The position numbers were made by a program, and so were the translations under genes. Positions 6,874-52,854 of a stretch of 64,000 bases of DNA are shown one piece after another. Positions within the stretch are counted from its first letter, which is position 1; every line of letters starts with the position of its first letter. Below the pieces are notes generated by a model. The model searched no databases. It saw nothing but the letters and a program-made list of their open reading frames with translations, and had not been told where the DNA came from. The stretch is from an uncultured Chlorobiota bacterium (lineage in GTDB: Bacteria; Bacteroidota; Ignavibacteria; UBA10030; UBA6906): positions 52,716 through 116,715 of the forward strand of contig CAADGV010000032.1 of assembly GCA_900696645.1 (NCBI GenBank), read 5' to 3'.

Positions 6874-6901
6874 GAAAGACTTCATAGGTTGAGAATGAGA
6901 A

Positions 6902-6918: not shown

Positions 6919-6927
6919 CGGTGTTTT

Positions 6928-7947: not shown

Positions 7948-7983
7948 TGTTATCTCCTCGTGATAATCACATTCGCTGGTTGC

Positions 7984-10346: not shown

Positions 10347-10367
10347 ATGAGCACAAATTCCTCGGAA

Positions 10368-11303: not shown

Positions 11304-11313
11304 CGTTCAGCGT

Positions 11314-12351: not shown

Positions 12352-12357
12352 GAAATC

Positions 12358-13140: not shown

Positions 13141-13146
13141 GATTAA

Positions 13147-15412: not shown

Positions 15413-15413
15413 C

Positions 15414-16244: not shown

Positions 16245-16389
16245 GAACTCCGATTGAAGAATGAAGAACGCTGAAAATATACGAAAAACGGGCTGAAACA
16301 GAAACAATGATGTAAATTTCAACATCTGTGCCGAAACACATCAAGCGATGATGGAGAAAAGGGCAGTTAAAATGATGGTCGGAAGGATG

Positions 16390-27579: not shown

Positions 27580-27601
27580 GAGTAATTTCTCCATAGTCAA
27601 C

Positions 27602-32245: not shown

Positions 32246-32250
32246 GGCCA

Positions 32251-33555: not shown

Positions 33556-33637
33556 TGAGTCCTCAATGCTTCGTTGTAGTTAGTTGGATTTGCCCCCCCC
33601 GAGTACTTCTTACAAAAGAAAGAACAATTGCAAACGT

Positions 33638-34663: not shown

Positions 34664-34720
34664 AGCTTCCTCCCTTGGTTTGAATATAGACTTTCCACTT
34701 CGCAATTGAAATGGCATTTT

Positions 34721-36514
34721 CTACCCTTCTTTCTTCAATGTAAACGTCAACGGAACCGTCTTCTCTTCGAAAGAGGGAGCCACGAGAACCTCCCTTTCCC
34801 CGCCCTGTGTTTCATATCCGAATCTCGTTACAGTTACGCGATGCCTTCCCGGTCCGAGTGGAAATCGAGCAACAGGCGCAAAAATATCGGTAGCTTTGCC
34901 GTTCACCGAAATCATGCCGCCGGAGGCATCGCCCTGCACCACAATGCTGAAGTACGTCTCGAAATAGCATGTCAGAGTTTTGGTCTCGCCCGGGTTCACC
35001 TTGATAGTTGTACGTTTGGTTCCGTATTGCGGATGTTCAAACACCAGCTCGCGATCACCGGCAGCAACCTGAAAGGACATTCCGCTTTTTCCGATACTTG
35101 ACCTCGATCCGTCAATGGAAACTGATCCGTCAGGAACCATTGCCAGCCGCAACGTTCCGAGACCAACGGGTCTCGGATCAACCGGCCTGGCTGTTCGCGT
35201 TTCATCTCGCACAGGCTTCGTGGCAGCAACTTCAGTGTTCAGGGCATTATCTTCAGTTGCGGAAGGAACCTCGCTGGTTAGTCCGGGCTTTTCTTCCGTG
35301 ATAATCTGTTCGGGAAGCTTGTTCAGGGCAAGCGAAAGCCCGAAGACCTGGCCTTCAGACAACACAATGGATGTATCCTTTACATAGTAACCCTCACGAT
35401 CAATACGTACGGAAATCTTTCCGGGATCAACTGCAAGATCTTTGAGTGGTGTCGTGCCGACGAGTTTGCCATTGAGCATCACCTTCGAGCCGTCCGGATT
35501 GGATTGAACAGACAACGTGGCGTCCGACGGAAAGAGTACAGGCCTAAGAGCGAACAATGCCGCAATGAGTGCTACCCCCGCGCCGAGTGTTATGTACAGA
35601 GGACGCCGCGCTGACGTTTGTTTTTTGAGATTCGGCGCAGGAAGGATTGGTTGCCCTGTCGATTCCTTCACAACAGCCAACTGTCCAACATCAACCCGCG
35701 ACAACATATCCCACATTTCAGCGGCTGACTGGAATCGCTTTGCAGGATCCTTTTCAAGAGACTTTGAGATTGCTTTGACGACTTCTTTCGGGAGAGAAGG
35801 ATTGAACTTGTCCGCGGGAGGAATTTTCCCTTCAACAATCATCTGACGGATATCAAAATCCGTTGCATTGTTCCCGAACGGAACCCGCCCGGTCACCGTT
35901 TCGTACAGCGTCATGCCGAGCGAGTACACGTCGCCGCGTGCGTCTACATTGGCGAGCCCGCGTATTTGCTCGGGCGACATATAATACAGCGTGCCGCCGG
36001 TTCCCATTGTCACAGTGGCGCTGGAAACCTGTTGAATCTTGGCAAGGCCGAAATCCGTCACCTTGACAACATCCTGAGGCGTCAGCATCACGTTACCCGG
36101 CTTGATGTCGCGGTGGATAATGCCGAGACGATGGGCATGATCCAATGCCGTGAGCAGTTGTTTGAAGATGGGCAGAGTCTTGTTCAGCGGCAGAGCGCCA
36201 TTCAGGCGGATGCGGTCGGCAAGCGTGTTTCCTTCTACAAACTCCATCACCAGCGCAAAGCCGATTTCCGTTTCACGCAACGCAAACACGCTCACGATGT
36301 TCGAGTTCTGCAACTTCGCCAGAGCCTTGGCTTCGGACTTGAATCGTTTGAGGAATTCCTCGTCCCGCGCAAAGTTTGCATCCATCATCTTCAGAGCAAC
36401 GTCACGGTCAAGCGTCATGTCCTTCGCTTTGTACACAACGCCCATCCCGCCTTTGCCGAGAATTCCGGTAATCTCGTAATTGTCGATAGTTTTGCCGATG
36501 ATGGATTGCTGCAT
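34721..36514 (-). CDS. Membrane Ser/Thr protein kinase with C-terminal PEGA domains
   Basis: 597 residues. The Hanks-type kinase domain spans about 12-275 with glycine loop LGKGGMGVV (19-27), K42, the catalytic HRDIKPGN (134-141), DFG (154-156) and SPE (180-182), so it should be active. A membrane helix at about 304-324 is followed by extracytoplasmic PEGA-type repeats (ATLSVQSNPDGSKVMLNGKLVGTTPL and two diverged copies). PEGA domains are thought to bind surface polymers or partner proteins. The gene starts three bases after the PP2C phosphatase gene, so kinase and phosphatase form a pair acting on threonines likely read by the FHA proteins encoded upstream. Confidence 0.95.
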   Translation of the reverse strand: MQQSIIGKTIDNYEITGILGKGGMGVVYKAKDMTLDRDVALKMMDANFARDEEFLKRFKSEAKALAKLQNSNIVSVFALRETEIGFALVMEFVEGNTLADRIRLNGALPLNKTLPIFKQLLTALDHAHRLGIIHRDIKPGNVMLTPQDVVKVTDFGLAKIQQVSSATVTMGTGGTLYYMSPEQIRGLANVDARGDVYSLGMTLYETVTGRVPFGNNATDFDIRQMIVEGKIPPADKFNPSLPKEVVKAISKSLEKDPAKRFQSAAEMWDMLSRVDVGQLAVVKESTGQPILPAPNLKKQTSARRPLYITLGAGVALIAALFALRPVLFPSDATLSVQSNPDGSKVMLNGKLVGTTPLKDLAVDPGKISVRIDREGYYVKDTSIVLSEGQVFGLSLALNKLPEQIITEEKPGLTSEVPSATEDNALNTEVAATKPVRDETRTARPVDPRPVGLGTLRLAMVPDGSVSIDGSRSSIGKSGMSFQVAAGDRELVFEHPQYGTKRTTIKVNPGETKTLTCYFETYFSIVVQGDASGGMISVNGKATDIFAPVARFPLGPGRHRVTVTRFGYETQGGEREVLVAPSFEEKTVPLTFTLKKEG

Positions 36515-36517
36515 CGC

Positions 36518-37300
36518 CTATCTCGATCCAAAAACTGTTTTCAAAAAACTGTCCGAACCCTTAACCTGAATGATCTGAACCGTAATATTATCATGTCCGC
36601 CGCGTTGTTTCGCAAGGTCAACAAGCTTGTCGCATGACTTCTGCAGGGAGTTGGAGAGAACAATTTCCTTCAGCTCTTCATCCTCAACATACGACGTCAG
36701 CCCGTCTGTGCACATTAGAAAATATTCGTCACCGCCCAGTTCAATACTGTTGATCAGATCGTAGTCAAAATCAGCCCGCACGCCCATAGCACGGTACAAC
36801 ATCGAACGTTCGGGATGAATCTTGCTTTCATCAGCCGTTATCAGCCCGCGTCTCACCATCTCTGCAACTTTGGAATGGTCGTGTGTAAGTTGCTCAATGC
36901 GTTTGGATGTAATTCGATACAATCTGCTATCGCCGACATGAGCCGCATACGCGGTTCCTTTCTGAAGAACCAGGGCTATGCACGTGGTTCCCATCCCGTG
37001 AAATTGCGGATGATGAAGACTGTATTCGTAGATGGCCCGGTTCGCATCGGTAAACGCTTTCTTCAATCCGGCCACTATTGAGCCGTTCGACGCAAAATAG
37101 GATTCGCCGATTGTTTCAACGGCCAGCCTGCTTGCCTCCCGTCCTCCTGCATGACCTCCCATGCCGTCGGCTACAACAAAGAGTTGCCCCTTGGGTCCGG
37201 AAAGGTCAAGATCATCATCCGGAAATTTAGCAAAGGCATCCTGGTTCTCGGTTCGAACCATTCCCACATCACTTTTCCCTGCAAACAAAATTGATTTCAC
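36518..37300 (-). CDS. PP2C-family Ser/Thr phosphatase (PPM/Stp1 type)
   Basis: 260 residues, soluble, Mn/Mg-dependent. Conserved metal-binding segments are TENQD, ADGMGGHAGG, HVGDSRLYRI, CTDGLTSYVED and GGHDNITVQII, all intact. Start is GTG 37300, overlapping the upstream reductase-FHA gene by four bases (GTGA), which implies translational coupling. Its obvious partner is the membrane kinase encoded three bases downstream. It should reset the phosphorylation state of kinase and substrates. Confidence 0.95.
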   Translation of the reverse strand: MKSILFAGKSDVGMVRTENQDAFAKFPDDDLDLSGPKGQLFVVADGMGGHAGGREASRLAVETIGESYFASNGSIVAGLKKAFTDANRAIYEYSLHHPQFHGMGTTCIALVLQKGTAYAAHVGDSRLYRITSKRIEQLTHDHSKVAEMVRRGLITADESKIHPERSMLYRAMGVRADFDYDLINSIELGGDEYFLMCTDGLTSYVEDEELKEIVLSNSLQKSCDKLVDLAKQRGGHDNITVQIIQVKGSDSFLKTVFGSR

Positions 37301-39588
37301 GAAGTAAGTATCTCCAGTTCAACGGCGTCTGAAGGCTTCGCCATGCACGCAAGCCTGCACTCGCCCGGTTTCAAACCGCAAATGTCTTCGAGCGTTCCGC
37401 GTTCATCCTCCCCAACCGGATTCAGATATTCTCCGCCCGAAATAATCCTGACTGGATCGCTGCCGCAGATTCCTGCATGACATTCTGCAACGATCTTGAT
37501 CCCATTATTCTCGGCAATTGTACAAATGGTTTGCCCTGTCTCAAACGGAACCGACTTGCCGAGATTCTTGAAGACAACCACCATTCCGGATGCTGCCGGC
37601 GCGGAAACCGGCTCGACAGGTTTTGCAGCAGGCTTCGCAGCAGGTGGCGCTTTTGTTGTCACCCTGACCCGATCAACGACACCCTCTTCCTGCATACTCA
37701 GCCTGAATGTCTGACTCCCGACACGAAACATTTCTCCGGGCTCGATCCTGACGGCATTTCGAACCTTGAGGTACGTACCGTTAACACTCTTGAGATCTTT
37801 GATAAACACCTTTCGATCTTTTGTAGCGATGGAAAGGTGCCGCCGGGAAAGGGTCATGTCGTTGGCATCAAGCGTAATATCTGGAGCTTCGCGGCCAAGT
37901 ACAATGGTTTTTTCTTGTGTCGGAAAATATTTGCCGACCTGCCTTCCCGATTGATTGTAATGAAAGATTGCCAGCTGCCCGTTTTCCTCCCTGAAGATAA
38001 GAAACTGTCTACCCAATCTCAGCAGGTCTCCGTCGGTCACTTCGACCGGCTTCGCTTCGGTTGTTCGCAAAAATATACCTGTCTGACTTCCGTCGTCACG
38101 CAGGAAGAATCCATCTCCGCCATGTGAAATTGAGGCATGACGTTCCGAAAGATTTGTGTCCTCCGGAAACACAATGTCGCAAAATTTCCGCCCGATTGTT
38201 GTAACGCCGTTCATGTTCACCGTGAACTCATCCTCCTCCACCCCGCCGGCAGTCAGCCGGACAAGGTACGCCCGTTTCTCCGTCGCCTTTTCCTGCGGCG
38301 GCTCCGTAATTTTTGAGAACACGGTCATGAGCGGAGATAGGGGAACCGGCTCTTGTTCGATCTTTGGCGCTTCATCCGCAAGCTGGACGTTCACCTCAAT
38401 CTCCTTCTTCCCTTCCACCCGCTGCGCAACGACTTCCGCAACGATTACTCCGTCGATCATTCCTGCCTTGATATTGCCTCTGTGTTTTACTTCACGGAAT
38501 GTCGACGGATCGGCGGTGAAATCTTGTGTTTCAAGATAGACCTGGCTGAGTATGTCGCCAATGAGATACACGTTCGGTTGTTGCGTTTCAAGAAGTGGCG
38601 TGACACACATTCGCTTCTTGTTTGTGAGGCCGCCTGTCACCATTCTGATGCCGAGAGAATTCAGAAACGCTTCCGGGATATCCTCGCCGATGCAAGCGAT
38701 GCAGAGTTCTTTCAGAAACTCGAGATGCAACGTTTCATTCGGGCGGCCCGCAATCGCTTTCCGATCGGTTCTGAGTGAAAGAAATTCCTGCTTGTCATCT
38801 CCGGCAACAATTGCCACAGGCTCGCTGTTGGGAAAGTAGCGGATATTGCCGTTGCCGATGTACGCCTCAAAGAACACATCCGCGAGAGCCTTCGACACCT
38901 TGGGAAGCTTGTCGCCGCGATACGACCAGTACACAGCCGAGGACTCGTTTGCTTTCACTTTTGCATTGGAGATGGCGATAACGGCCTCGGCAGCCGATGT
39001 ACCGCCGCCGATGACAAGCGCCGGGCCTTTCACGTAGGCTTGCGCGTCGGCAAGGCGGTAGGCAATCCCGTCTGTGTTCCCGGGAATATCAAATCGCCGC
39101 GGCACGCCCCGCCCGATTCCGATGGCAATGTGTTTGGCAAGAATCTGCTGTTCGGATTTTGTGTTGTGATTCCATGTCTTTATCTGCCACACGCCATCGC
39201 CGCGCCGGTGCAGTCCAAGCAGTTCGATTCCTATTTGAGCGGGGATGTTGTTGGCAACATACAGGAGCTTCCATTCATCCACCATCTCATCTTTATCGAT
39301 AGCGGAGAAATGGAGTGCCGAGATGAGATCGCCGCCCTTCGGAAAGCGCATCTGATCACCACCGCCGAAGTCGGGAAGGATCAGCTTGTCTTTGGGATAA
39401 TCGCGGATGCGCTTCATCAAATCGTCGTAGTCGATCACCAGCGCATTGAGGCCGAGTTCCTTTGCGCGGAATGCCGCGGCTGTTCCCGCAGGCCCGCCGC
39501 CAACAACCAGCAGGTCGAGAACCTCAGGCAGCGCAACTGATGTTGCCAGCAGCAACGAACCATCCGCCGAGTAAGTCACACTCGTCAT
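37297..39588 (-). CDS. Flavin-dependent NAD(P)-binding oxidoreductase fused to two FHA domains and a [2Fe-2S] ferredoxin domain
   Basis: 763 residues, an unusual fusion. Residues about 24-370 form a thioredoxin-reductase/YpdA-like two-Rossmann flavoprotein (LLVVGGGPAGTAAAFRAKELG at 27-47; second nucleotide site ALVIGGGTSAAEA). FHA domain 1 is near 460-530 (TTIGRKF, LSERHASI) and FHA domain 2 near 560-640 (VLGREAPDI, LSRRHLSI, SVNGTYL). After a Pro/Ala linker, the C-terminal 95 residues are a plant-type ferredoxin domain with C703, C708, D711, C737, C744 and C748; the usual third ligand cysteine is replaced by D711. It overlaps the FHA gene upstream by four bases. Inferred role: a cytoplasmic electron-transfer enzyme docked to phosphothreonine sites. 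Confidence 0.88.
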   Translation of the reverse strand: MTSVTYSADGSLLLATSVALPEVLDLLVVGGGPAGTAAAFRAKELGLNALVIDYDDLMKRIRDYPKDKLILPDFGGGDQMRFPKGGDLISALHFSAIDKDEMVDEWKLLYVANNIPAQIGIELLGLHRRGDGVWQIKTWNHNTKSEQQILAKHIAIGIGRGVPRRFDIPGNTDGIAYRLADAQAYVKGPALVIGGGTSAAEAVIAISNAKVKANESSAVYWSYRGDKLPKVSKALADVFFEAYIGNGNIRYFPNSEPVAIVAGDDKQEFLSLRTDRKAIAGRPNETLHLEFLKELCIACIGEDIPEAFLNSLGIRMVTGGLTNKKRMCVTPLLETQQPNVYLIGDILSQVYLETQDFTADPSTFREVKHRGNIKAGMIDGVIVAEVVAQRVEGKKEIEVNVQLADEAPKIEQEPVPLSPLMTVFSKITEPPQEKATEKRAYLVRLTAGGVEEDEFTVNMNGVTTIGRKFCDIVFPEDTNLSERHASISHGGDGFFLRDDGSQTGIFLRTTEAKPVEVTDGDLLRLGRQFLIFREENGQLAIFHYNQSGRQVGKYFPTQEKTIVLGREAPDITLDANDMTLSRRHLSIATKDRKVFIKDLKSVNGTYLKVRNAVRIEPGEMFRVGSQTFRLSMQEEGVVDRVRVTTKAPPAAKPAAKPVEPVSAPAASGMVVVFKNLGKSVPFETGQTICTIAENNGIKIVAECHAGICGSDPVRIISGGEYLNPVGEDERGTLEDICGLKPGECRLACMAKPSDAVELEILTS

Positions 39589-40526
39589 CTTGACGGCTTC
39601 CTGACGAGACGAGCCTTGACAAGGCCGAATGTGATTTTCATGCCTTCCTTCACTTCCACTTCTTTTGAAATTCTCTGATTATCGATGTATGTATGATTCT
39701 TGCTTCCGAGATCTTTTAGCGTAAGCGTTCCTCCCTTTAACACAAATTCGGCATGTTTGCGCGACATCGAGCCATCGTCGATGAATATGGCGGATGATTG
39801 TTCGCGACCGACAATCATCGAACCTTCCTTCAGATCGAAAGCAGCGGGCCCTCCTTTCAATCCCTCAAAAATGAGAACGTAATGCGGCAACGATTCCGGG
39901 GCGGCAGGCTTCGGCGGTTTCGAAGGCTCGACAAATGACGGAACGGGCGTGAAATCAACACCAACTTTCGTGCGTTGGATATCATCCGAAACCGGCGGCT
40001 CCGGTTTCTCTTGAAACGCAGGAAGCGAGAATGCGCCATCGTCAAAGACAGTCTTCTGCCGTTCGTCTGTTTTGGGACTCACAGGCTCATCCTCCTTCGA
40101 TAATGATGGGAGGGGAACGAAATCCTCGCTGACTTTCGTCTTCCGATCAGGAACGGAAGGCTTGAGAGGAGCCGGATTCTGCGGCAGTTGCTTAACGGGT
40201 TTCCTATCCCGCTCCTCTGATACATCCTCCATTACTTGAAAAAGAAAATCGAACGCGTTTGAGAATGTGATGATATTCAGTTCGCTCAGGCGCTCTTTCC
40301 CTCGTACTCGAACGCCATCAACACGAGTACCGTTACGGCTGCCGAGATCTTCGATGATGAATCTCTTCTCTTTCTCATCGAACACAATGCGTGCATGCTT
40401 CCCCGAAATTGACTGCGGATAGAGTTGAATCGAATTCCCGGGAGCCTTGCCGATAGTTGCCTCCCTGCCGATTTCGAACAAGGCTCCGGCCAACTGACCT
40501 GTTTTGCAGAACAATCGCGCTTTCAT
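39585..40526 (-). CDS. Double-FHA-domain phosphothreonine-binding protein
   Basis: 313 residues from ATG 40526, which overlaps the decaheme cytochrome stop by one base and follows AGAGG; the frame runs on to 40631. FHA1 spans about 12-98 (IGREATIG, SGKHARI, LGSRNGTRV) and FHA2 about 216-307 (VGREQSSAI, SRKHAEF, LGSKNHTYI). The linker (100-210) is proline-rich and holds three copies of a T-(K)V--DF-P-PSF motif around T130, T159 and T186, plausible kinase targets. It likely bridges the kinase and redox proteins. No membrane segment. Confidence 0.92.
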   Translation of the reverse strand: MKARLFCKTGQLAGALFEIGREATIGKAPGNSIQLYPQSISGKHARIVFDEKEKRFIIEDLGSRNGTRVDGVRVRGKERLSELNIITFSNAFDFLFQVMEDVSEERDRKPVKQLPQNPAPLKPSVPDRKTKVSEDFVPLPSLSKEDEPVSPKTDERQKTVFDDGAFSLPAFQEKPEPPVSDDIQRTKVGVDFTPVPSFVEPSKPPKPAAPESLPHYVLIFEGLKGGPAAFDLKEGSMIVGREQSSAIFIDDGSMSRKHAEFVLKGGTLTLKDLGSKNHTYIDNQRISKEVEVKEGMKITFGLVKARLVRKPSR

Positions 40527-42103
40527 CATTTCCTCTCCACATACAATTGCAAACTGCCGCGATTCTGCTTGTTCGGATGCATGAAGTGGCACGACACGCA
40601 GTTGCTCAGTCCGGCACTTTGTGTATGACATTCGGTGCAGTTGTCAAGTTTCGGTATGTTGTGCGTTGACGCCTTGTCGATTGCTGCTACACCTGTTGTG
40701 TCGCCTGCTATTGCCCGTTCGACAGGAATCACATTGTGACAATCAAGACACCGTCGCTGGATGATATGCGCCCGATGATCGAACTCGGCACGCAGAAACG
40801 ATCGCTGACTCGCTTTGACGTTAAGGATTGATGCTCCTTGAACGTAATGGCATTCGAGACATGGCTTTGCCAGCTTCTGTGCAAAGTCATCAATCTCTTG
40901 TCGTTGAGTAACTGCTTTGACACTTTGCGCAAGGCCGGGAAGTTCCGGCAACATGTCGCCGAATGAAATCCGTCGCTGCGCGGCTTTCAGCAGTGAATCG
41001 ATCATCGTCAGCTCCCGCTGAATCTCGGCTTCAGGATGCGAACGCAAACCAATTACGTATTCCTGAAGAGTCTTGATTGCTTCATGATACACCTCTTCTT
41101 TGCTTCTCGTCGTACCCTGACCTGAAGCGGCCAACAAATCAGCCAATGTCGAATCGGAATGCATAATCCGGTAAAGCTGTTTCAGGTTTTCGAGAACCCA
41201 CGGATCGCGATGATACACGGGCGATTTCTTGACACGGGAGCCGCTCACAGTAAACTCGTTCGGGTTTGTGTAGAAAGCCCACGTTGTGCCCGGTCCGCGT
41301 CGTCGCTGAATCATCTCAAGCGTCTCAACACCAATAGACGACGGATTTGCAGCATCTTTTATTGCAAGCGACGACGTCTCGACATTCGCTGTCAGATGGC
41401 AATCGCCGCAATGCGCGTCGAAGTCGAGAGATTTGAATCCTTTGCCGTCGGGTTGGGCTTCGTGGCAGTATAAGCACGCCTGCTCAGCGTTTGGAGTCTT
41501 TAGCAACTTCAGCACTTCCTTCGTGTGAAGGACATGTGTCATCTTCAATGTCGAATCATCCGGCGTATTTGTGCGGGCAAAGGCAAACTCGGGATGATTC
41601 TTGTTGAACGATGAAAAATGGCACGATGCACATTTCGAATCAGGAGTACGGGTAATTGCCGCCTCTCTTCCCTTGTGATCGGGATGACAGTTTGCGCATC
41701 GTTGTTCGTCCGACGCATGCTTTTTTTTCGCTGTTCCAATCCTGCCGGCATCTTCTGAGCGATAAAGATAGTGGGCAGAAAAGGTGTAAACGCCCAATTT
41801 GTCGTTTGCCTTCTCATGACACGTCGAGCATTTCGAGTCTGTCACACCTGCAAATGATTGGTGGCAGCTTGCGCAATTCGACTCGAATTGTGAATGATTG
41901 GATGAAAGATCACCGCTTGAGATGAATGTATTGTTGAGAAGCACGGCATCCGCCGCATAGTATAAAGCAATCAGGGCGCAACCAATTCCGCCCAACATCA
42001 TCATCTGTTTGCGGGAGACGGGAAAAACGTACTCCTTCGTCACCGGCAACCGGACATCACCGAAGGTTCCTTTCTTCCTGCTTTCGTCTTTCTGTTTTGC
42101 CAT
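40526..42103 (-). CDS. Membrane-anchored decaheme c-type cytochrome
   Basis: 525 residues from ATG 42103 (frame open to 42193). The N-terminal cytoplasmic 35 residues precede a single anchor helix (QMMMLGGIGCALIALYYAADAVLL). The rest is extracytoplasmic and contains ten CXXCH heme sites: CASCH, CSTCH, CANCH, CASCH, CLYCH, CGDCH, CLECH, CLDCH, CTECH, CVSCH. There is a heme-free stretch of roughly 180 residues between sites six and seven. It lies five bases after the cytochrome b gene and is its probable periplasmic electron partner, in the manner of Qrc/NrfH-type quinol:cytochrome modules. Confidence 0.93.
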   Translation of the reverse strand: MAKQKDESRKKGTFGDVRLPVTKEYVFPVSRKQMMMLGGIGCALIALYYAADAVLLNNTFISSGDLSSNHSQFESNCASCHQSFAGVTDSKCSTCHEKANDKLGVYTFSAHYLYRSEDAGRIGTAKKKHASDEQRCANCHPDHKGREAAITRTPDSKCASCHFSSFNKNHPEFAFARTNTPDDSTLKMTHVLHTKEVLKLLKTPNAEQACLYCHEAQPDGKGFKSLDFDAHCGDCHLTANVETSSLAIKDAANPSSIGVETLEMIQRRRGPGTTWAFYTNPNEFTVSGSRVKKSPVYHRDPWVLENLKQLYRIMHSDSTLADLLAASGQGTTRSKEEVYHEAIKTLQEYVIGLRSHPEAEIQRELTMIDSLLKAAQRRISFGDMLPELPGLAQSVKAVTQRQEIDDFAQKLAKPCLECHYVQGASILNVKASQRSFLRAEFDHRAHIIQRRCLDCHNVIPVERAIAGDTTGVAAIDKASTHNIPKLDNCTECHTQSAGLSNCVSCHFMHPNKQNRGSLQLYVERK

Positions 42104-42108
42104 AGTCG

Positions 42109-42945
42109 TTAGTAGTACCAGACGGCCCAGATATGCAACGCCACCATCAGCAACAGAACGAGCGAGAGCGGTACATGAGTTGCAAGCCACCATCGCAACG
42201 GACGTTGCAACGAGTAGTGTGCATCCAATTCCAGTTTTGTTCTATACAAATCCTGAAGCTGATCCAGCTTCTCTTTCTCCTCCAATGACAATACTTTCCG
42301 AAGAAACCCGAACTGTTTGATGGAGGATTGGATACCGCCGGTAACGTCAATGTAGTAAATCAGACGCGGCTGCGGCGCAATCAACGCTGCCGCAATGTTC
42401 GAGCGATAGAAATCCCTGACGGGTTCCGGGCATGATTCCACCATTTTCTCAGCCCTGGCTCGAATCTGCTCGACAAGTTCCGGAATTCTCTCGTACATTG
42501 CTTCCACCGACAATCCGGATGAGAGGATTTTGGGAATCCATTGTTGCAGCGCAACACCAAGCATTCCGCTGAGTGTAACCCAAATCGAAAGAAGCCACAG
42601 TATCCAATCAAACAGGCCATGCGGCAGGCGAAAACCCGTATGCAGCAGCACGAGCAGCCCTGCCAGCGTTCCTCCATACAGATGAAATTGGACCCACGCT
42701 TCCGATTTGCCGAGGTCGCGTTTCAACATTCTGCGGCGAACGGCGTAGAATCCCGCGCCGAGCATGAGCAGCGACGCGGCTGTTCCGTATGCTAATCCCC
42801 ACCAGTTTCCGGGATTGATTTCGGCAACAAGGCCATTCAGAAGGTACATGAGAATGAATGCGCTGGTGCCAAAAGCAAACGCAAGCGCCCATCGGGGGGA
42901 CTGGACGTAACGATGCCACTGAAATGATCTAAGTACTTTTAGCAT
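42109..42945 (-). CDS. Diheme membrane cytochrome b
   Basis: 278 residues from ATG 42945 (AGAGG upstream; frame open to 43077). Four to five membrane helices are visible. Two histidine pairs, each 14 apart, lie on predicted helices: H88/H102 (FHLYGG... LLHTGF) and H257/H271 (THVPLS... ALHIWAVWYY), the spacing expected for bis-His ligation of two b hemes across a four-helix bundle. A charged loop of about 100 residues sits between helices 4 and 5 (SVEAMYERIPELVEQIRARAE...). It starts one base after the CNB-FeS gene and probably carries electrons between quinone or the FeS protein and the decaheme cytochrome. Confidence 0.85.
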   Translation of the reverse strand: MLKVLRSFQWHRYVQSPRWALAFAFGTSAFILMYLLNGLVAEINPGNWWGLAYGTAASLLMLGAGFYAVRRRMLKRDLGKSEAWVQFHLYGGTLAGLLVLLHTGFRLPHGLFDWILWLLSIWVTLSGMLGVALQQWIPKILSSGLSVEAMYERIPELVEQIRARAEKMVESCPEPVRDFYRSNIAAALIAPQPRLIYYIDVTGGIQSSIKQFGFLRKVLSLEEKEKLDQLQDLYRTKLELDAHYSLQRPLRWWLATHVPLSLVLLLMVALHIWAVWYY

Positions 42946-42946
42946 C

Positions 42947-44578: not shown

Positions 44579-44650
44579 TTATGGAACCACTGATTATTCT
44601 TCTTCTAACTCAAAGATTAAAGTAACATGATTCAACAGGAGAGACGTTTG

Positions 44651-45610
44651 CTACCCGCCGGTTTTCTTGTACAACAACTCAAGCCGCTGCTTCAACAATA
44701 GTAGCACCGAGTCTACCCGGGTACTGTCGGTGATTGACGGAAACGGTGGAAGCACAATCGGCTCCTTTGGGGGAGGAGGTGCAGCGCTTACATCGGCCGG
44801 TACGGGCTTCGGAGGTGGCGGCGGCTTGCGCACGCGTTGACGCGGAGTTGAGTCTCCCTCCTGATCAGACCCCGCAACGCTTTGCGCTGCAACAGCTTGC
44901 GGAACCGAAGCTGTACCCGAGGAACTCGGGGCAGGTTTCCGAGCAGACCCTGCTGTGGCAGGTCCGCGTGCCTTCTTCGCATCGGCAAAGTATTTCACGT
45001 TCTGATCTTCGTCGGTGATGGGATGCCGCCAGTGTTTGGCAACAGATTTCATTCCCGATCGGTAGTTGAACTTCTCGCCCGACGGATGACCCGCGGCAAG
45101 AATCTTCTGATCTGTCAGATAGTGGCAACGCACGCACATTTTTGCACGAACATTCAAGTCTTGTTTGACATCAAGCAAGCCAAGCGGAAGGGATTTTGTG
45201 TAGCCGGGACGAATCGTGCCGGGAGCATACTTCCCTTCCTGATGCACGTCCTTGTACCCGCTGCCGGGTCCGTGGCAGCTTTCGCAGCTTACACCTTCCT
45301 CAACATCCTTGCTCTCCTTCCCCGAAATGATCGTGCCATGACACTCCATGCACTTCGATGTTCCCTTGAGATAATTTGCAGAGCCAATGCCTGAGAGTTC
45401 AGCATATTTTCTCGCATCTTCGCTGTCGGCAATATCATCAACGGAATTCTTGTGCTTATCGATCATGTTCTTGTTGTCGCCGGCGTGACAGTTGTTCTGC
45501 CCGACACCGCAACCTACGGGACCGAGTGTCTGATACTTCTGGCTCCACGCGGAGACCGGCAGAAGAGCCACAACGCTGAAGAGAATGATCGTATACAGAA
45601 CATTTTTCAC
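44651..45610 (-). CDS. Small multiheme cytochrome, c554-like
   Basis: 319 residues if started at GTG 45610, which gives a clean signal peptide (cleavage near AWS|QKY); ATGs at 45652/45649 overlap the previous gene. Three standard heme sites CMECH, CESCH and CVRCH are present plus an expanded CGVGQNNCH (CX6CH) at C34. The distribution resembles tetraheme cytochrome c554-type proteins. The C-terminal 120 residues are a Pro/Ala/Ser-rich tail ending in a short helix (VDSVLLLLKQRLELLYKKTG), perhaps for partner docking. It sits 16 bases after the decaheme-LVIVD gene; a 72-base gap separates it from the CNB-FeS gene. Confidence 0.85.
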   Translation of the reverse strand: MKNVLYTIILFSVVALLPVSAWSQKYQTLGPVGCGVGQNNCHAGDNKNMIDKHKNSVDDIADSEDARKYAELSGIGSANYLKGTSKCMECHGTIISGKESKDVEEGVSCESCHGPGSGYKDVHQEGKYAPGTIRPGYTKSLPLGLLDVKQDLNVRAKMCVRCHYLTDQKILAAGHPSGEKFNYRSGMKSVAKHWRHPITDEDQNVKYFADAKKARGPATAGSARKPAPSSSGTASVPQAVAAQSVAGSDQEGDSTPRQRVRKPPPPPKPVPADVSAAPPPPKEPIVLPPFPSITDSTRVDSVLLLLKQRLELLYKKTGG

Positions 45611-45626
45611 TGAACAGTCACGCCAA

Positions 45627-48600
45627 TTACTTTCTAAACACTTTCCCATCATCAGAAACAGTCCACAACTTTCCGTCTTTCAGATACATCTTCTGCATTT
45701 CCGGGAGTGTGAACGGACGGGAACCTAATCTCCCGAAAACGCTTACTTGATTTCCGCTTTCATCCACCGCCCGGTCACGATCCATCCCCTTCGAAATCGA
45801 CAATGCCCGGCCGGGTGTTTTGCGCGAAGCAATCAGAACGGGGGCAGGAGCCGGACTGAACCCCAAGTAACCGGGAACGGTTTTGGGAGATGTCAGTTGA
45901 ACTACCCGCAATCCGTTTTTACCGTCGGCAACGTAGGCAAAGAGGCTTGCATTCGTTGATGCAACTTTCACTCCTTGCGCATCGTTGATTTGCCCGTCCG
46001 CGGTAAAAATCTTCTCCAACTTCATCTTTTCCGGATTCTCGACATCGACGATTACGAGTCCCTGCCGTCCCGCTGCAACGTACGCGTACGTTCTCGCAAC
46101 GTACACATCATTGGCGCCCTGCAAAACCAGCGTACCTCCTGCAACAGGTTTCGGATCCTCATTGTTGGTGAGATCGATGCTCTTCACGCCTTCTTCATCG
46201 CAGACAAAAGCATATCGAAACTGAACGGCCACAGCTTTCGGGTTACGAATGAATGGTGCGCCAATCTCTTTCACAATGCGAGGTTGCAGCGGATTCTCGA
46301 TATTCACAACCACAATTCCCCTGTCAGCACAGATGTAGACGTAGTTCCCTGCTATCGTCAAATTGACGGCGCCGTTGAGCACGCTGTTGGGATTGAATGT
46401 CAGCGCCCTGTCCAGAAAGTTATTCCTCGGATCGGCATCGACAAGATTCATGACATCGACGAGAATCAGCCCTTCATATTTGTCCGTTACATAGGCGTAA
46501 CTGTACAACGGATGCAACGGGCCCTGCTCTTGATTCTCGGGCCTGACTTTCCGTCGTGTGTCGATCGGCATGTTTGTCGGCAATGCAACGGCAGTTGCGT
46601 ATTTCGTTTTGACGCGAGTATTCTGTCCGAGCGGAGAAACGGGAGCCGTCACGATGCGTTCGGAGTATCCTTTGTTGTCGATGTTCGCAACATCATACAC
46701 ACGAAAACCGTCGTCGCCGCACGCTGCATAGAGATACTCTCCGCGAAGTTCCGCTCTCAAGACAGTCCCGCTGTGAGAGTACGCCGCTTGCAAATTTTTC
46801 TTGCTACTGAGATGTGATTTATAATAGTCGGGAAATGCCAGACTGTGCAAGTAACTTCCGATAACGGCTTGCGGTTCGTCTCCCTCTGTCACCTGAACGG
46901 CCGCTACGCCGCCATTGCCGGCCGCAACATAAGCGTACTTGCCCATGAAGTTGACGAAGTTCGTTCCCTGAAGAAACAACTGGGCAATCCACGCGTTGTT
47001 ATCGTTCTTCGATGACACGTGGCAGTCCGTGCAGGTCCGGGTTTCCGTCGAGCGAACCGTATGCGCAAAATGCGGATTGAATGCCTGACTGCTGAAACCG
47101 GGCGATGAAATCGGCGCCTGCTGGTTGTAAATCTGCTCACGATTTGCATTTACAGAACTGAGAATCAGCGCGCTTGATGAACGTACGGTCGTTATCTTGC
47201 TTCCCTTCGTCGTCCCTGTCAGGCCAAGCATGTAGCCGTCATCGCGCAACACTTGGGGATTGTACGTCGTCCAGTTGCGCGAGACCTCACCTTCATAGTG
47301 ATTCATCTGCTTTTTCCAATTCGCCTGTTGCGGAAGGTGACATCCGAAGCAGTTGGTAATCCACGACGTGTGGCAACTCTGGCATTCCATTTTTTTGTAT
47401 GAGTGCGCAAACAGGTTTTCATCCGTACCCGGCTTGCCGACTGTGCCATCCTTCATCATCAAATGAGCGGCTTCCGCTTTGGCGTTATAGGCCTTCGATT
47501 CCTTCGTATGAAGGTCAACCGTCTGCAAAACTTCCCACTGCAGTGTATCGACAAGCGAGGAACGCTGCAGGATTCTTCCTCCCGACTTTCTGAACCGGCG
47601 CTCGCTGAAAGGTGTGTAGAGATCAGCGAGATTCGTACCGCCCGAAGGCGCCGCAACTCCGGATGTTCGCAGCGTTGCTTTTTCAGAGAACGTGCCATGG
47701 CAATCTACGCATTGAATTTCTACTGCGTTGTGAAACTCGCCGACCAATTTGCCGCTGCCGTGATTGTCCTGCTTGAAGTGACAATCAACGCAATGCATTC
47801 CTTTTTCAAGATGAATATCCTTCAAATGAACAGCCTTTTGTGCATTCTTGCTTGCAGGAGTGGGAATCGTCGGCGCAGCCCCTTCAACCGGAACAACACC
47901 CTCGAACTTGTACGGGGCGTTGAACGGAATAATGTTGCCATCTTTGTCAAGCAGATTTCCTTTCCTGTCTTTCTTGAACACGGCTCTGAAAACCCAGCCG
48001 TGCCCGTGATAGTCAGAGAATTGTGTGTGCGAGAGTTGAGGATTCAACTCGCTCGTCTTCGCTAGAAATTCATAATTGCTCCAGTTTCCTCTCAACACCG
48101 CTTCTTCCGGATTACCGGAGAGAATGGCGAACGCCTCAGCGTCCGAAGGATATTTCTGCTGCTTCGGATACATCAACTCGCCGTCGGTTTCGTAATCCCA
48201 CATTTGAAAACCGAGGTATGTATTCACGAACGAATTCGGCTGGTGCATGTGACAACTCATACACTGGCTTGAAGGAATCGACCTTGTGAATTGGTGTTTG
48301 ATGGGATGACCCGAAGCCGATTTCGAAATTGTCGTGTCGGTTGTTTGCGACTGGCCGCGGTTGCCGAACTTTGCGTACGGTCCCGCATTGAACGGCGAGC
48401 GATCATTAGCATATACAACGTGACAACCCGTGCATCCGCTGGAGCGGTAGTCGCCGGGATGATCATTCGTCCCAAGAAAAGAAAGATGCGGATCGTTCAG
48501 TCGTGTTTTGTGGATATTGAGAACGGGCGAACTGATGCGAAGCTGCGTGCCCGGTCCGCGGTCACTCAGCTTGTTGTCGGGCCTGCCCGGCTCTTCAAAC

Positions 48601-49304
48601 GGATTTGGGATTCCAATTTCTGACGGATTGATGCGGGGGACTTTTCCGCCCCGTTCAAAACTCCTGAAGTTATCCGGCGGCTGCGTAATTTCCCACCGGG
48701 GAAGCGGCAGAAGAAACGGAAGAATTCCTTTCTTCTCCATCTCCTCTTGTGTCGGTGCCGGAACGGTATTGATGCGTTGCGGCTTTCCATCCCGACTGTA
48801 ACTTTCTCCGAGGATGTAAGTCTTGACAGGCAGAATGCCGTTGTTATACGCTGCTCCGCCCCACAACAGTGCCGAAGTCGTCATCATGCTTTTCTGCACG
48901 TTGCGCACAATAGGATCGGCGGTGGTGTTGTGGCACGGGCCGCATGCTTTTTCTGCTGCACGCAAATCTCCCGGATTGACAAAGCGAACGAACTCGGGAT
49001 ATTCTTCATTGAGAAGAGTATATGAACGTTGTGGATTTGCCGCTGACTTCCAGCGATTCGGGAAACGCGGTTTCACATGTCCGGCCTCTTGCGTAGTGAC
49101 GTCGGCATTTCCGCCGTGGCAGTCTGTGCATCCCAACTTCACCGCGGTGTTCTTGTGCATCGGCTCGATGCCGCCGTGGCACGTGACGCATCCTCTGCTC
49201 TTGCGGTCAGCATCGGCTTGCGATTGGCGCATGAGATCGGCTTCCTGCGCGTTCCCTGCCGAAACGAGAAGCATCAACCCGAATATGTATTTCATTCGTT
49301 GCAT
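45627..49304 (-). CDS. Decaheme c-type cytochrome fused to LVIVD beta-propeller
   Basis: 1225 residues. The signal peptide is about 1-19 (GNA|QEA); ATG 49295 is an alternative start. The first 750 or so residues contain ten CXXCH sites: CVTCH, CTDCH, CGPCH, CTGCH, CMSCH, CVDCH, CVDCH, CQSCH, CFGCH, CTDCH. The C-terminal 400 or so residues are LVIVD-type repeats (YAYVAAGRQGLVIVDVENP, YVYICADRGIVVVNIENP, YAYVTDKYEGLILVDV), predicted to fold as a propeller. Extracytoplasmic and likely on the outer surface or held at the outer membrane. It lies nine bases after the beta-barrel gene, compatible with a porin-cytochrome arrangement. Confidence 0.92.
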   Translation of the reverse strand: MQRMKYIFGLMLLVSAGNAQEADLMRQSQADADRKSRGCVTCHGGIEPMHKNTAVKLGCTDCHGGNADVTTQEAGHVKPRFPNRWKSAANPQRSYTLLNEEYPEFVRFVNPGDLRAAEKACGPCHNTTADPIVRNVQKSMMTTSALLWGGAAYNNGILPVKTYILGESYSRDGKPQRINTVPAPTQEEMEKKGILPFLLPLPRWEITQPPDNFRSFERGGKVPRINPSEIGIPNPFEEPGRPDNKLSDRGPGTQLRISSPVLNIHKTRLNDPHLSFLGTNDHPGDYRSSGCTGCHVVYANDRSPFNAGPYAKFGNRGQSQTTDTTISKSASGHPIKHQFTRSIPSSQCMSCHMHQPNSFVNTYLGFQMWDYETDGELMYPKQQKYPSDAEAFAILSGNPEEAVLRGNWSNYEFLAKTSELNPQLSHTQFSDYHGHGWVFRAVFKKDRKGNLLDKDGNIIPFNAPYKFEGVVPVEGAAPTIPTPASKNAQKAVHLKDIHLEKGMHCVDCHFKQDNHGSGKLVGEFHNAVEIQCVDCHGTFSEKATLRTSGVAAPSGGTNLADLYTPFSERRFRKSGGRILQRSSLVDTLQWEVLQTVDLHTKESKAYNAKAEAAHLMMKDGTVGKPGTDENLFAHSYKKMECQSCHTSWITNCFGCHLPQQANWKKQMNHYEGEVSRNWTTYNPQVLRDDGYMLGLTGTTKGSKITTVRSSSALILSSVNANREQIYNQQAPISSPGFSSQAFNPHFAHTVRSTETRTCTDCHVSSKNDNNAWIAQLFLQGTNFVNFMGKYAYVAAGNGGVAAVQVTEGDEPQAVIGSYLHSLAFPDYYKSHLSSKKNLQAAYSHSGTVLRAELRGEYLYAACGDDGFRVYDVANIDNKGYSERIVTAPVSPLGQNTRVKTKYATAVALPTNMPIDTRRKVRPENQEQGPLHPLYSYAYVTDKYEGLILVDVMNLVDADPRNNFLDRALTFNPNSVLNGAVNLTIAGNYVYICADRGIVVVNIENPLQPRIVKEIGAPFIRNPKAVAVQFRYAFVCDEEGVKSIDLTNNEDPKPVAGGTLVLQGANDVYVARTYAYVAAGRQGLVIVDVENPEKMKLEKIFTADGQINDAQGVKVASTNASLFAYVADGKNGLRVVQLTSPKTVPGYLGFSPAPAPVLIASRKTPGRALSISKGMDRDRAVDESGNQVSVFGRLGSRPFTLPEMQKMYLKDGKLWTVSDDGKVFRK

Positions 49305-49313
49305 TGAAGAACT

Positions 49314-50993
49314 TCAGTATGTGAACGCGAACCCGACGGTTCCGGCATACAGCATGTCCCCTCTTTCATAGATATCTTTGAAGCCGGCAAGCGGCGAGAA
49401 CGCCGAGAATCCGAGTGTAATGATCGCATTGTTGTTCAACAACGGACGATACATAATGCCAAGACTTGCCTCCAACCCGATTTGTTTGTGAATGGCATTC
49501 TGATTCAGAAAATCAACAAGAACACCGGTGTCAACGAAACGGAGATAGGTCAGATTGAGGGATGTCTTGATTTTAGGAGTGAGCTCGGCGTCGTATCCTG
49601 CATTCAGCAGAATGAGTCCCGGATTAACGAAGTTGGCTTGCCCTTCAAGTTTGCTGCTGCGCAGCGTAGGCAGAAAACTGAGCTTCTGCACAAGTCCCAC
49701 CCCCTGCAACCCGATGCGCTGCAGTTGCCAGTAACTGAACGCGCCTCCTGCAAAGAACGGAGCATCAAGAATTGCATCAAAGCCCTTTCCTGCATCATCG
49801 GCGATATCGTCGTCGCCTGAGGCATAGAGGCCCGAAATCTTGAAGCGCTGCCAGTCATCATCAACCGAGAGTTCGAGCGCCGCCATTTGTGCATTGATAG
49901 TGATTTTCTTTCCTGCGAACGAATTGAAATCATCGGTGCCGAACACCTGATAGAACGCATGCGTGATATTCAGCCAATCGAAATGGCCGTCTCCCGCCCA
50001 ACCGACATAGTATGCTTTGATCTCATGCGGTTTCACGTTGCCGGCCAGCGCGGGGCGGACAAGAAATCCGTTATCGTCGTAATGCGTGCCGGGTTTGTCG
50101 TGATTGTAATGAAAACTGAATTGAGTTGTGTAGCCGAGCGCCCACCAATCTTGAATGTAAATGTTCGCTATACCGACATCCTGATTGCGCCGGTCGAACA
50201 CGGTATTCAACTCACTGTTTGTTTCCTTCTCTAACATCGGCAGGTAGATGAGATTCCACTGAATCCGGTTCGCGTTGAGATTCCCGAACAGTCTCGCCCC
50301 GAGATTGAAGTCACTGAAAAGGAATCCTCTGAAATCGCTTGAGAATTTCTGAATTCCGACCTTCAACGAAACAAAGTCATATCTGTCGCTCACATCGAAC
50401 AGATGTTTCTCGACAAACAACTCTTGAAATCCGATATGATTTTCCGTCCTCGTGTCACCTTTCCGGACGTTGATGTTCAGCCCGTTGAACTCTTTCAATT
50501 GCGTGAAATTCAGATTGAAGACGGCAGTTGCCTTCACCTCCCAATCACGCGGACGAAATGCTGTCTGACCGCCGTACAGTTCAACGGAGAGTCTCGCAAA
50601 TGAATTGTTGACGAGCCTGTTATTCTCTCCAAAGAATACATCTCCCAACGGCTCACGCGTGCTTATGCCGATGGGAGTCGGGTTGCGGAGGATTTCAAAG
50701 ACATTCTCGGCAGTTGCCATGAGAATCAGGAACGTATTCTGTCCGGCAATCGGGTAGTCGCCCTTGAGGATATTCTGATTGTACGGATCGGCGGCGCTTC
50801 CCTCGACAGTGTACTCGGAAGCAGGCGAAACAATTCTCCAACGATCTTCAATCACTTCGAAGTCCTTTAGTGCAGGTTGTTTTGCAGCAAGTGTATCAGG
50901 ATTAGATGTTGGGGTTTGAGCAGCCGATTGGATGCAGCTCAAGAAAGCAGCCGCGAGAATCAACACACTTTTGAGCAGAAGAGTATGCTTCAT
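49314..50993 (-). CDS. Outer-membrane beta-barrel protein, candidate porin of a porin-cytochrome complex
   Basis: 559 residues with signal peptide about 1-25 (SAA|QTP). The mature chain is built of many amphipathic strands ending in aromatic residues (DWEVKATAVFNLNF, RYDFVSLKVGIQKFSSDF, WWALGYTTQFSFHYNH) and finishes with GTVGFAFTY, the usual outer-membrane C-terminus. About 20-24 strands seem possible, but I cannot count them reliably. The start overlaps the GlcG-type gene stop by four bases and the end is nine bases from the decaheme-LVIVD gene. That context suggests a sheath for electron transfer; a plain channel is possible. Confidence 0.85.
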   Translation of the reverse strand: MKHTLLLKSVLILAAAFLSCIQSAAQTPTSNPDTLAAKQPALKDFEVIEDRWRIVSPASEYTVEGSAADPYNQNILKGDYPIAGQNTFLILMATAENVFEILRNPTPIGISTREPLGDVFFGENNRLVNNSFARLSVELYGGQTAFRPRDWEVKATAVFNLNFTQLKEFNGLNINVRKGDTRTENHIGFQELFVEKHLFDVSDRYDFVSLKVGIQKFSSDFRGFLFSDFNLGARLFGNLNANRIQWNLIYLPMLEKETNSELNTVFDRRNQDVGIANIYIQDWWALGYTTQFSFHYNHDKPGTHYDDNGFLVRPALAGNVKPHEIKAYYVGWAGDGHFDWLNITHAFYQVFGTDDFNSFAGKKITINAQMAALELSVDDDWQRFKISGLYASGDDDIADDAGKGFDAILDAPFFAGGAFSYWQLQRIGLQGVGLVQKLSFLPTLRSSKLEGQANFVNPGLILLNAGYDAELTPKIKTSLNLTYLRFVDTGVLVDFLNQNAIHKQIGLEASLGIMYRPLLNNNAIITLGFSAFSPLAGFKDIYERGDMLYAGTVGFAFTY

Positions 50994-52609
50994 TGAATTT
51001 CGGGCTGGCGTGGAAACTTGACGTACGGAAGACGTACACCCTGATAGTAGAACTGATCGGAACGAATGTTCGGCGGCGGTTCGAATCCCGAGGCGCCTGC
51101 GGCGGCAATCAAATCATCCTGATCAACTCCATCGCCGCTGATGCCGATAGCACCGACAAGTTGGCCGTTCTTGTACAGAGGAATCCCACCGGGAAAGATG
51201 GTGACGCCGTTGCCGCGGTTCGGGCCAAACGTCGGAAGACCTTGGGCAAGCAAGCGGAATTGGTACGTGAAGTTTGTTCCTTCAAATAGCGGGCCCGGGC
51301 CTGTCCGGTTGCCCAACGAATCCCTGTCAATCCCCGGCGGAAAAAAATCCTGCGCAAGAAAACCGATTGCACGGGTTGTTATGGCAAGGGGAGAATTGGA
51401 AGAGAGGCCGAGAATCGTTCTTATTCTCTGACTGAATTCGGTGTTATTTTGAGGATTGGGATTGTTCGGGTTGCTGAACACAAGGGCAGTGCGGGCTTTT
51501 TGGACACAGACATCATAGCTGAAAATAGTCGCATCCGGGGTTCGCCAGATACCGAGAACGGATCCATCCACATCAACAACTGAAATGAAAACCTGCGATG
51601 CCGCGCCCACCGGTCGGCGGATTGCAGCGCGGGTTCGTTCAGCTTGAGTCTTCGCTTGCACGACAATCGACTGAACCTCGGCAGCCGTCAACATCGATCC
51701 TCCAACAATCGGAAAATCAAATCCGCCACCCAGCAACACTTCGCCTTCGTTCGGAAAACGTTGCGCAGGAGTCGCCCGAATAGGATAGTCGGTATCAACT
51801 GATCCCAGTGCAAGCGCTTGAGCAAACGTCAGCGAGAAATTTCCGGCAGGCGATTCGGCGGTAGCGTAGAGGAATCTGATTCCGTCAATAAAGATTCGAT
51901 CTCCTCTTCGATCATCAGGTACGGAGTAGCCAAGAACGGCGCCAAGGGCAATTACTTCATCGGAACTGACTCCCGTGCAGAGTGATTGCTTGAATTGTGA
52001 TTCGGCTCCGATCACGCCGATGCCTCCTGCAAGACAATCACCTTTGTAGATGGGAATACCACCGGGAAGATCATTCAGCGCGTTGCCGTTCGGCATGATG
52101 TCGCTGCCGGGCAGATTGGACAAACCAACGCCGAACAATGGTCCGCCGGGAGCATTTGCGACACCGGGCGGAAAGTGCGAACGCGTAATGAAACATGCAG
52201 TTGTTGTCGAAAAAGCGTGCCCGTTGCTGCTGAGAAACGCAGCCGTACGTGCCTTGCGGATGCACGTATCAACAGTTGTTATTTGAACCGGGATATTGTT
52301 GACTGTAAGCGGCGCAGAAACAAACCGGGCGCCGGTCATTCGGAACACACCGAGGATATTTCCTTCCCGGTCAGAGACGGCAATGGTGACTCTTTGATTG
52401 AGACGCTGTGCTTGTTCGACTGCGCGGGAAATGAGTGTTTCAACTTCGCTTTGAGAAAGAAACGGCGTGCAGACTTGGGCAGATGAGGAAGGGTTCTGAA
52501 TCGTGTCGCAGGATGACACAAACATAGAGGGGAAAAGAAAGAACCCAGCTCTAAGCAATGCTGCCAATCGGCTTCGAACCGGAATGAACTTGTTGGCAAC
52601 TCCGTGCAT
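50990..52609 (-). CDS. Lipoprotein with two GlcG/HbpS-type heme-binding domains
   Basis: 539 residues from ATG 52609 (GGGGAG upstream; frame open to 52672). A lipobox FVSSC puts the lipidated cysteine at 34. Two tandem DUF336 domains follow (about 50-265 and 285-525), each with TIAVSDREGNILGVFR / VFISVVDVDGSVLGIWR and a GGIPIYK--- -GGIGVIG / GGIPLYKNGQLVGAIGISG core. HbpS-type proteins of this fold bind heme. As first gene of the long operon after a good promoter, it may handle heme or act as a redox sensor for the cytochromes encoded next; that is inference. Confidence 0.88.
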   Translation of the reverse strand: MHGVANKFIPVRSRLAALLRAGFFLFPSMFVSSCDTIQNPSSSAQVCTPFLSQSEVETLISRAVEQAQRLNQRVTIAVSDREGNILGVFRMTGARFVSAPLTVNNIPVQITTVDTCIRKARTAAFLSSNGHAFSTTTACFITRSHFPPGVANAPGGPLFGVGLSNLPGSDIMPNGNALNDLPGGIPIYKGDCLAGGIGVIGAESQFKQSLCTGVSSDEVIALGAVLGYSVPDDRRGDRIFIDGIRFLYATAESPAGNFSLTFAQALALGSVDTDYPIRATPAQRFPNEGEVLLGGGFDFPIVGGSMLTAAEVQSIVVQAKTQAERTRAAIRRPVGAASQVFISVVDVDGSVLGIWRTPDATIFSYDVCVQKARTALVFSNPNNPNPQNNTEFSQRIRTILGLSSNSPLAITTRAIGFLAQDFFPPGIDRDSLGNRTGPGPLFEGTNFTYQFRLLAQGLPTFGPNRGNGVTIFPGGIPLYKNGQLVGAIGISGDGVDQDDLIAAAGASGFEPPPNIRSDQFYYQGVRLPYVKFPRQPEIQ

Positions 52610-52663: not shown

Positions 52664-52692
52664 ATAGTACAATTCGCATCACAGAAAAGCAA
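52664..52692 (-). promoter_or_regulatory. Promoter of the redox/signalling operon
   Basis: Minus strand: TTGCTT (52692-52687), 17-base spacer, TACTAT (52669-52664), about 55 bases before the GlcG-type start codon. Good sigma70-like match. It is divergent from the tRNA promoter 36 bases away. Confidence 0.7.
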
Positions 52693-52771: not shown

Positions 52772-52844
52772 GGGGCTGTAGCTCAGCTGGGAGAGCGCGT
52801 GAATGGCATTCACGAGGTCAGGGGTTCGATCCCCCTCAGCTCCA
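52772..52844 (+). tRNA. tRNA-Ala (anticodon GGC)
   Basis: 73-base cloverleaf. The acceptor stem GGGGCTG/CAGCTCC has one G-U pair, the D-arm is GCTC-AGCTGGGA-GAGC, the anticodon stem CGTGA/TCACG encloses loop ATGGCAT with anticodon GGC, and the T-arm is AGGGG-TTCGATC-CCCCT. The discriminator is A; CCA is not encoded. A promoter lies just upstream and a terminator at 52935. Confidence 0.97.
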
Positions 52845-52854
52845 CGAAACGATC

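Follow-up and report, generated by a model that had tools for sequence, protein, structure and literature searches.

The window analysed here is a 64,000-nucleotide stretch of contig CAADGV010000032.1 from an uncultured Chlorobiota bacterium. It carries on its minus strand, at positions 34721-52609, eleven genes that combine multiheme cytochromes with FHA-domain proteins, a Ser/Thr kinase and a PP2C phosphatase. All eleven open reading frames were found where an earlier note on this DNA had placed them, the domains it had named for their products were borne out by Pfam and NCBIfam, and its heme-motif counts were correct. The 4-base overlap it had claimed between the reductase and PP2C genes was confirmed, and overlaps of the same length occur at the GlcG/barrel, decaheme/double-FHA and double-FHA/reductase junctions. 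Better starts were found for the genes of cytochrome b (42945), the decaheme cytochrome (42103) and the double-FHA protein (40529), which corrects the earlier annotation. Two further points of that description did not hold: the gene run does not end at 34721 but goes on downstream past the kinase, and the single good promoter proposed at 52664-52692 (TTGCTT-17-TACTAT) is weak, sharing 7 of 12 consensus bases by eye, and was not listed in a promoter scan. No promoter is established for the operon.

The centre of the run encodes a cytoplasmic protein with tandem cyclic-nucleotide-binding (CNB) domains and four [4Fe-4S] clusters (CNB-FeS, 42947-44578; PF00027 and Fer4 families), whose cluster cysteines are invariant in 39 relatives. 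It is followed by a diheme cytochrome b (42109-42945) and a membrane-anchored decaheme cytochrome (40526-42103) with one N-terminal hydrophobic segment and ten CXXCH motifs, which are invariant in 29 sequences. The cytochrome b matched no Pfam or NCBIfam family, and its profile matched no PDB sequence. It carries the hallmark of a transmembrane diheme cytochrome b, two His pairs on two helices with the partners 14 residues apart (H132/H146 and H301/H315; codons at 42682, 42640, 42175 and 42133), and these pairs are invariant in 37 of 37 sequences.

The tandem CNB fold is nearest to the regulatory subunits of PKA, including the cAMP-independent ones of trypanosomes. The position of the phosphate-binding Arg is occupied by Gln180 in 37/37 proteins of the FHA class, while it is Arg in a homologue from Sphingobium. 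Because these pockets lack the Arg, control of the FHA-class proteins by cyclic nucleoside monophosphates (cNMP) is doubtful from their sequences and was rejected as an explanation. CNB1 contains a loop of 57 residues (44126-44296) that is predicted to be disordered, with a predicted local distance difference test (pLDDT) of about 30 in comparison to 85-95 in the CNB cores. It holds two candidate phosphosites, Thr109 (44252-44254; conserved in 23/37) and Thr129 (44192-44194; 28/37), and is absent from the FHA-less Sphingobium protein.

The double-FHA protein (39585-40529), a putative scaffold with FHA1 at 40263-40457 and FHA2 at 39624-39815, starts within the stop of the decaheme gene (ATGA). 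The adjacent gene (37297-39588) encodes a reductase with the Pfam order Pyr_redox-FHA-FHA-Fer2, consisting of an FAD/NAD(P) domain (38389-39525), two FHA domains (38011-38202 and 37717-37905) and a 2Fe-2S domain (37300-37596). Both glycine motifs, for FAD and for NAD(P), and the C-x4-C-x2-D...C cluster motif are invariant in the family. The Asp in the third Cys position of the cluster motif is thus family-wide; E. coli SdhB likewise has Asp at this place. The genome contains five FHA domains, four of which are in this operon. In both FHA proteins the first domain is degenerate and the second retains the phosphothreonine-binding Arg, Ser and Asn essentially without variation (Arg in 25/25 and Asn in 26/26 of the rows reaching the FHA2 domain).

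The linker between the two domains of the double-FHA protein (39876-40226) is not alignable overall, yet it repeats the pattern T-x-hydrophobic-[DEG]...P-x-hydrophobic in up to four copies. Three Thr motifs are present in the window: TKVSEDFVPLPSL (40101-40139), TVFDDGAFSLPAF (40014-40052) and TKVGVDFTPVPSF (39933-39971). Across the family, 22 of 25 linkers contain the full motif, with 52 occurrences in total where 3.7 are expected from shuffles that ignore the relatedness of the sequences (shuffle maximum 12). Seven held-out linkers contained it ten times against 0.8 expected, spread over four of the seven. The same Thr motif was not enriched in either linker of the reductase. The FHA domains and Thr motifs are compatible with phosphothreonine docking, for which this evidence, drawn from sequence, is indirect but specific.

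Two enzymes that could write and erase such marks complete the set. The PP2C phosphatase (36518-37300; PF13672, E 1e-18) has intact metal and catalytic motifs (DGMGG, GDSR, TDG and DNIT). The kinase (34721-36514; Pkinase E 2e-52), one of three Pkinase domains in the genome, has intact HRD and DFG motifs, one transmembrane segment (residues 305-323) and a PEGA domain outside (E 2e-23). Of the 25 loci that extend far enough to show such a gene (the entries L037 and L071 are one genome), 12 have a kinase or PP2C gene no more than 1 kb from the reductase gene, and in ten of these the distance is within 150 bases. At a generous 1.25% per gene, the chance of at least 11 such loci among 23 is roughly 1e-15. 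In L077 and L074 the reductase is followed by a kinase, L077 being a trio, and in L070 from KSB1 double-FHA, reductase and kinase genes stand alone, apart from the cytochromes and with no CsgG gene. The earlier note had regarded kinase and phosphatase as integral to the system. The kinase part of this claim stands in so far as its linkage is far above chance, but the kinase is present in only about half of the loci, and PP2C in cis is confined to Ignavibacteria and Rhodothermia. The kinase tails differ, with PEGA in Ignavibacteria, Rhodothermia and Zixibacteria and TonB_C in two Acidobacteriota; therefore, it is the FHA pair that stays constant, and the input seems to be interchangeable. Behind the kinase lie two TPR-CsgG genes (32251-34717; minus strand, CsgG by Pfam) at gaps of 3 and 82 bases, an order shared by L020, L026 and L032.

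The upstream part of the operon encodes four products. The first gene encodes an HbpS/GlcG-type lipoprotein with a lipobox-like VSSC (50990-52609; PF03928 in three stretches, E 7.7e-30), which is kept at the same place in Ignavibacteria, Zixibacteria, KSB1 and Sphingobium. The second product is an outer-membrane beta-barrel (49314-50993) that matched no Pfam family; its AlphaFold2 model has about 17-18 strands at a mean pLDDT of only 50, and at this low confidence the best Foldseek hits were AlgE/MOMP/OprD. It is followed by a ten-heme cytochrome with a C-terminal LVIVD propeller (45627-49304, heme part 46995-49304; 10 CXXCH, LVIVD E 4e-18), which has sub-threshold similarity to ExtM (ExtM equivalog 89.8 bits, cut-off 800), and by a three-heme c554-like cytochrome (44651-45652; PF13435, E 5.8e-7). 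An 8-heme form replaces the latter in Acidobacteriota, Gemmatimonadota and Rhodothermota. Two front ends are seen among the loci, either GlcG, barrel, decaheme-LVIVD and 3-heme c554, or a 5-heme plus an 8-heme cytochrome.

By searching the CNB-FeS alignment against 84,980 species genomes, we found 36 true CNB-FeS loci in Ignavibacteriota, Zixibacteria, KSB1, Calditrichota, Acidobacteriota, Gemmatimonadota, Rhodothermota and Myxococcota. Domain annotation and extended loci revealed an ordered core of CNB-FeS, cytochrome b, decaheme, double-FHA and reductase-FHA-FHA-2Fe2S in seven of these phyla (Ignavibacteriota, Zixibacteria, KSB1, Acidobacteriota, Gemmatimonadota, Rhodothermota and Myxococcota). 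One locus with the core, L056, belongs to the cultivable Sulfidibacter corallicola M133. Among the 34 loci whose sequence could be read, 29 have the double-FHA gene adjoining the decaheme gene (manual count); the exceptions are L052, L053 and L058 from KSB1, L041 and L054. A sister genome (L019/L020, about 90% identity) has the same gene order including the downstream run, and eight further genomes in which the locus is cut off or rearranged contain a full-length or nearly full-length reductase. The distribution is patchy, with the CNB-FeS protein in five genomes among 60 relatives and a reductase that is rare in a set of 296 genomes from the phylum. The earlier note had made its proposal depend on conservation of the combined neighbourhood in related genomes, and such conservation is indeed found. 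Judged by gene order, the cytochromes and the FHA/reductase part belong to one conserved unit. Two unrelated operons lying side by side by chance, a reading allowed by the fact that tight gaps by themselves are no proof of linkage, have a negligible probability and were rejected in view of the identical order in seven phyla.

Gene fusions indicate how the parts are wired. On Sphingobium plasmids the FAD, CNB and 4Fe-4S domains form one chain beside cytochrome b and decaheme genes, and in KSB1 and Caldithrix CNB-FeS and cytochrome b are fused in one chain. The path therefore reads FAD, FeS, heme b, decaheme. Since the reductase is fused in the FHA-less Sphingobium version, docking would be needless there. 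A CpdA-like phosphoesterase adjoins this cluster, which together with the retained Arg in the CNB pocket suggests cNMP control of the Sphingobium version. The FHA class may have replaced the cyclic-nucleotide control kept in this relative by kinase control.

From the parts, their order, conservation and fusions, the phosphothreonine-binding residues and the motif enrichment, we infer phosphorylation, docking, direction and acceptor as follows. The cytoplasmic FAD enzyme would take electrons from NAD(P)H, and its 2Fe-2S domain would hand them to the four clusters of the CNB-FeS protein. From there they would pass over both hemes of cytochrome b in the membrane to the periplasmic decaheme, and on through the c554 and decaheme-LVIVD cytochromes to an acceptor in or beyond the periplasm. 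Attachment of the reductase to the membrane complex would not be permanent: the Ser/Thr kinase would phosphorylate Thr residues in the double-FHA linker, and probably also in the disordered loop of CNB1, and the canonical FHA2 domains of the reductase and the double-FHA protein would recognise the phosphorylated residues and keep the reductase at the complex, or release it in the closed state. PP2C, or a phosphatase encoded elsewhere, would reset the switch. Electrons that cross the membrane from its negative to its positive side and bypass the quinone pool dissipate membrane potential, and we propose that such an electron valve needs a gate because of this waste. A regulated transmembrane electron pathway, gated by phosphothreonine and FHA domains, is the best explanation of the locus and in our view a reasonably probable one.

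Several observations weigh against it. Many loci have neither kinase nor phosphatase in cis; some KSB1 and Caldithrix genomes have the cytochromes and no full reductase; and L041 from Acidobacteriota lacks both the reductase and a local double-FHA gene. Neither a full-length nor a nearly full-length reductase was found in genomes G347, G354, G355 and G353. Metagenome-assembled genomes lacking the reductase may be incomplete. The strict Thr pattern was not seen in the held-out linkers of L070, L072 and L079, and the shuffles are blind to shared ancestry of the linkers.

Among the alternatives, a dedicated periplasmic reductase of one solute (an N, S or Se oxyanion, or peroxide), with the c554 and HbpS-like parts as its catalytic end, is unlikely. 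The c554 family membership, the sub-threshold ExtM similarity, the HbpS-like lipoprotein and a barrel that is AlgE/OprD-like and not MtrB-like all point in this direction, and the same gate could serve such an enzyme. However, GlcG-barrel-LVIVD exchanges with the 5-heme plus 8-heme front end, and therefore no single catalytic part is constant.

The FHA domains could also be mainly a fixed assembly scaffold of a constitutive complex, with the kinase serving other targets such as the CsgG and propeller genes behind it. The roughly half of the loci that lack a kinase in cis, the degenerate FHA1 domains and the CsgG genes behind the kinase in L020, L026 and L032 fit this idea, which we regard as rather unlikely: the phosphothreonine-binding residues of FHA2 are retained almost without exception, the Thr motifs are repeated and conserved in an otherwise unalignable linker, and the L070 kinase adjoins the double-FHA/reductase pair where neither CsgG nor cytochromes are present.

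Still less probable is a reverse flow, in which periplasmic or extracellular donors would reduce the cytochromes and the flavin enzyme would reduce NAD(P)+ or ferredoxin (uptake, lithotrophy). The anatomy permits either direction, and a 'Forkhead-associated protein' with ten heme motifs is listed for 27 of 87 iron-oxidising Gallionellaceae genomes (PMC10734462), in agreement with an uptake function. Against it, the potentials of multiheme cytochromes are usually above that of NADH, so uptake to NAD(P)+ would run uphill.

If the gated electron pathway is correct, it would have wider implications. Extracellular and periplasmic electron flow in bacteria is usually thought to be governed by gene expression and substrate, whereas here a transmembrane electron path would be gated post-translationally, fast and reversibly. 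Hanks-type kinases would be tied to respiration in several little-studied phyla, the FHA domain and its motif would offer a tractable pair, and a function is suggested for the CNB-FeS, cytochrome b and double-FHA families, which had lacked names.

A closer look at the surroundings revealed additional features. The GC content is 0.51-0.52 across the whole window, and a foreign island was rejected on composition. A tRNA-Ala gene (GGC; 52772-52845) lies directly upstream of the operon, as it does in L019; in those distant loci that were checked, it did not accompany the operon. The two CsgG genes are followed, with a 4-base overlap, by a 1550-aa propeller/ASH protein linked to type IX secretion, and the downstream run (24370-34717) further holds a 619-aa protein and a beta-rich protein. 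Type IX sorting tails are present on the 1550-aa and 619-aa proteins. This run is conserved in L020; L026 and L032 have part of it, and in L044 it is convergent. A nearly complete protoporphyrin heme pathway (5575-16325, minus strand; identified by eye from the sequences) forms a single run about 18 kb from the multiheme operon (hemL, hemB, hemG/Y, hemH, hemF, hemE, hemD, hemC and hemA, then a CcsA-like gene). Finally, 20658-24227 encodes a repeat-rich 1189-aa protein whose C-terminal region resembles the self-cleaving S74-type chaperones of phage tail spikes.

The earlier note knew of no described system joining a kinase/phosphatase/FHA set to a cytochrome conduit, and in the 5.39 million open-access papers searched we likewise found none joining these parts; the FHA-annotated decaheme proteins of Gallionellaceae (PMC10734462) came nearest. 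Porin-cytochrome conduits were among the known systems that the note had named. The Mtr/Ext conduits share an outer-membrane barrel and multiheme cytochromes with the operon, including the weak ExtM similarity, but differ in the inner-membrane part. An MtrB/MtrA-type conduit was rejected, as the barrel has no MtrB-type Pfam match and a weak AlgE/MOMP/OprD-like model, and the best TIGR03508 (DmsE/MtrA family) match, the c554 protein, reached 17.3 bits against a cut-off of 192. For the Ext selenite/tellurite operons, the ExtM equivalog score is below cut-off.

The threonine phosphorylation pathway of the type VI secretion system (PpkA/PppA/Fha1) is similar in that kinase, PP2C and FHA proteins govern another machine, which here would be an electron carrier with PP2C in a minority of loci. 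An origin of the set from such a system was rejected, since the sheath protein VipB (PF05943) had no match in the genome. GarA pairs an FHA domain with a T-x-hydrophobic segment whose Thr is a kinase target; the intact phosphothreonine-binding residues of FHA2 are a shared feature, and the Thr motifs of the linker would be the counterpart of that segment. In contrast, GarA and OdhI of Actinobacteria are each a single small FHA protein with 2-oxoglutarate dehydrogenase as its binding partner, whereas the present system has a double-FHA scaffold beside a reductase with FHA domains of its own; the double-FHA protein scored 72.8 bits with the NCBIfam OdhI equivalog, below the cut-off of 200. NADPH oxidase and Fre-MsrQ-MsrP lead electrons from a cytosolic NAD(P)H-flavin part over two hemes b to the outside, and NADPH oxidase is assembled by phosphorylation. 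An FeS protein and multiheme cytochromes take part here instead, and no homology is claimed.

Two kinds of gene cluster come close to the operon. The Sphingobium clusters (L067 and L068; 12 Sphingobium records matched) lie on large plasmids and share homologues of CNB-FeS, cytochrome b, decaheme, GlcG, barrel and MHC-LVIVD, but have FAD fused to CNB-FeS and no FHA domain in the stretch. In the simpler clusters of L028, from the same order, and L080, from KSB1, a gene for a YpdA-like FAD domain and 4Fe-4S neighbours those of multiheme cytochromes and of a related cytochrome b. They differ by carrying FAD and FeS in one chain; the stretches read contain neither CNB or FHA domains nor a kinase or phosphatase, and no name for these clusters was found in the literature searched. 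No described family shows all of its defining features at this locus. We tentatively consider the NAD(P)H-to-multiheme electron valve, with a reductase plugged in and out through phosphothreonines on the double-FHA scaffold, a separate class of energy device found in at least seven phyla. Taken together, each half of the system resembles a known kind, and there is a substantial chance that the whole deserves a class of its own.

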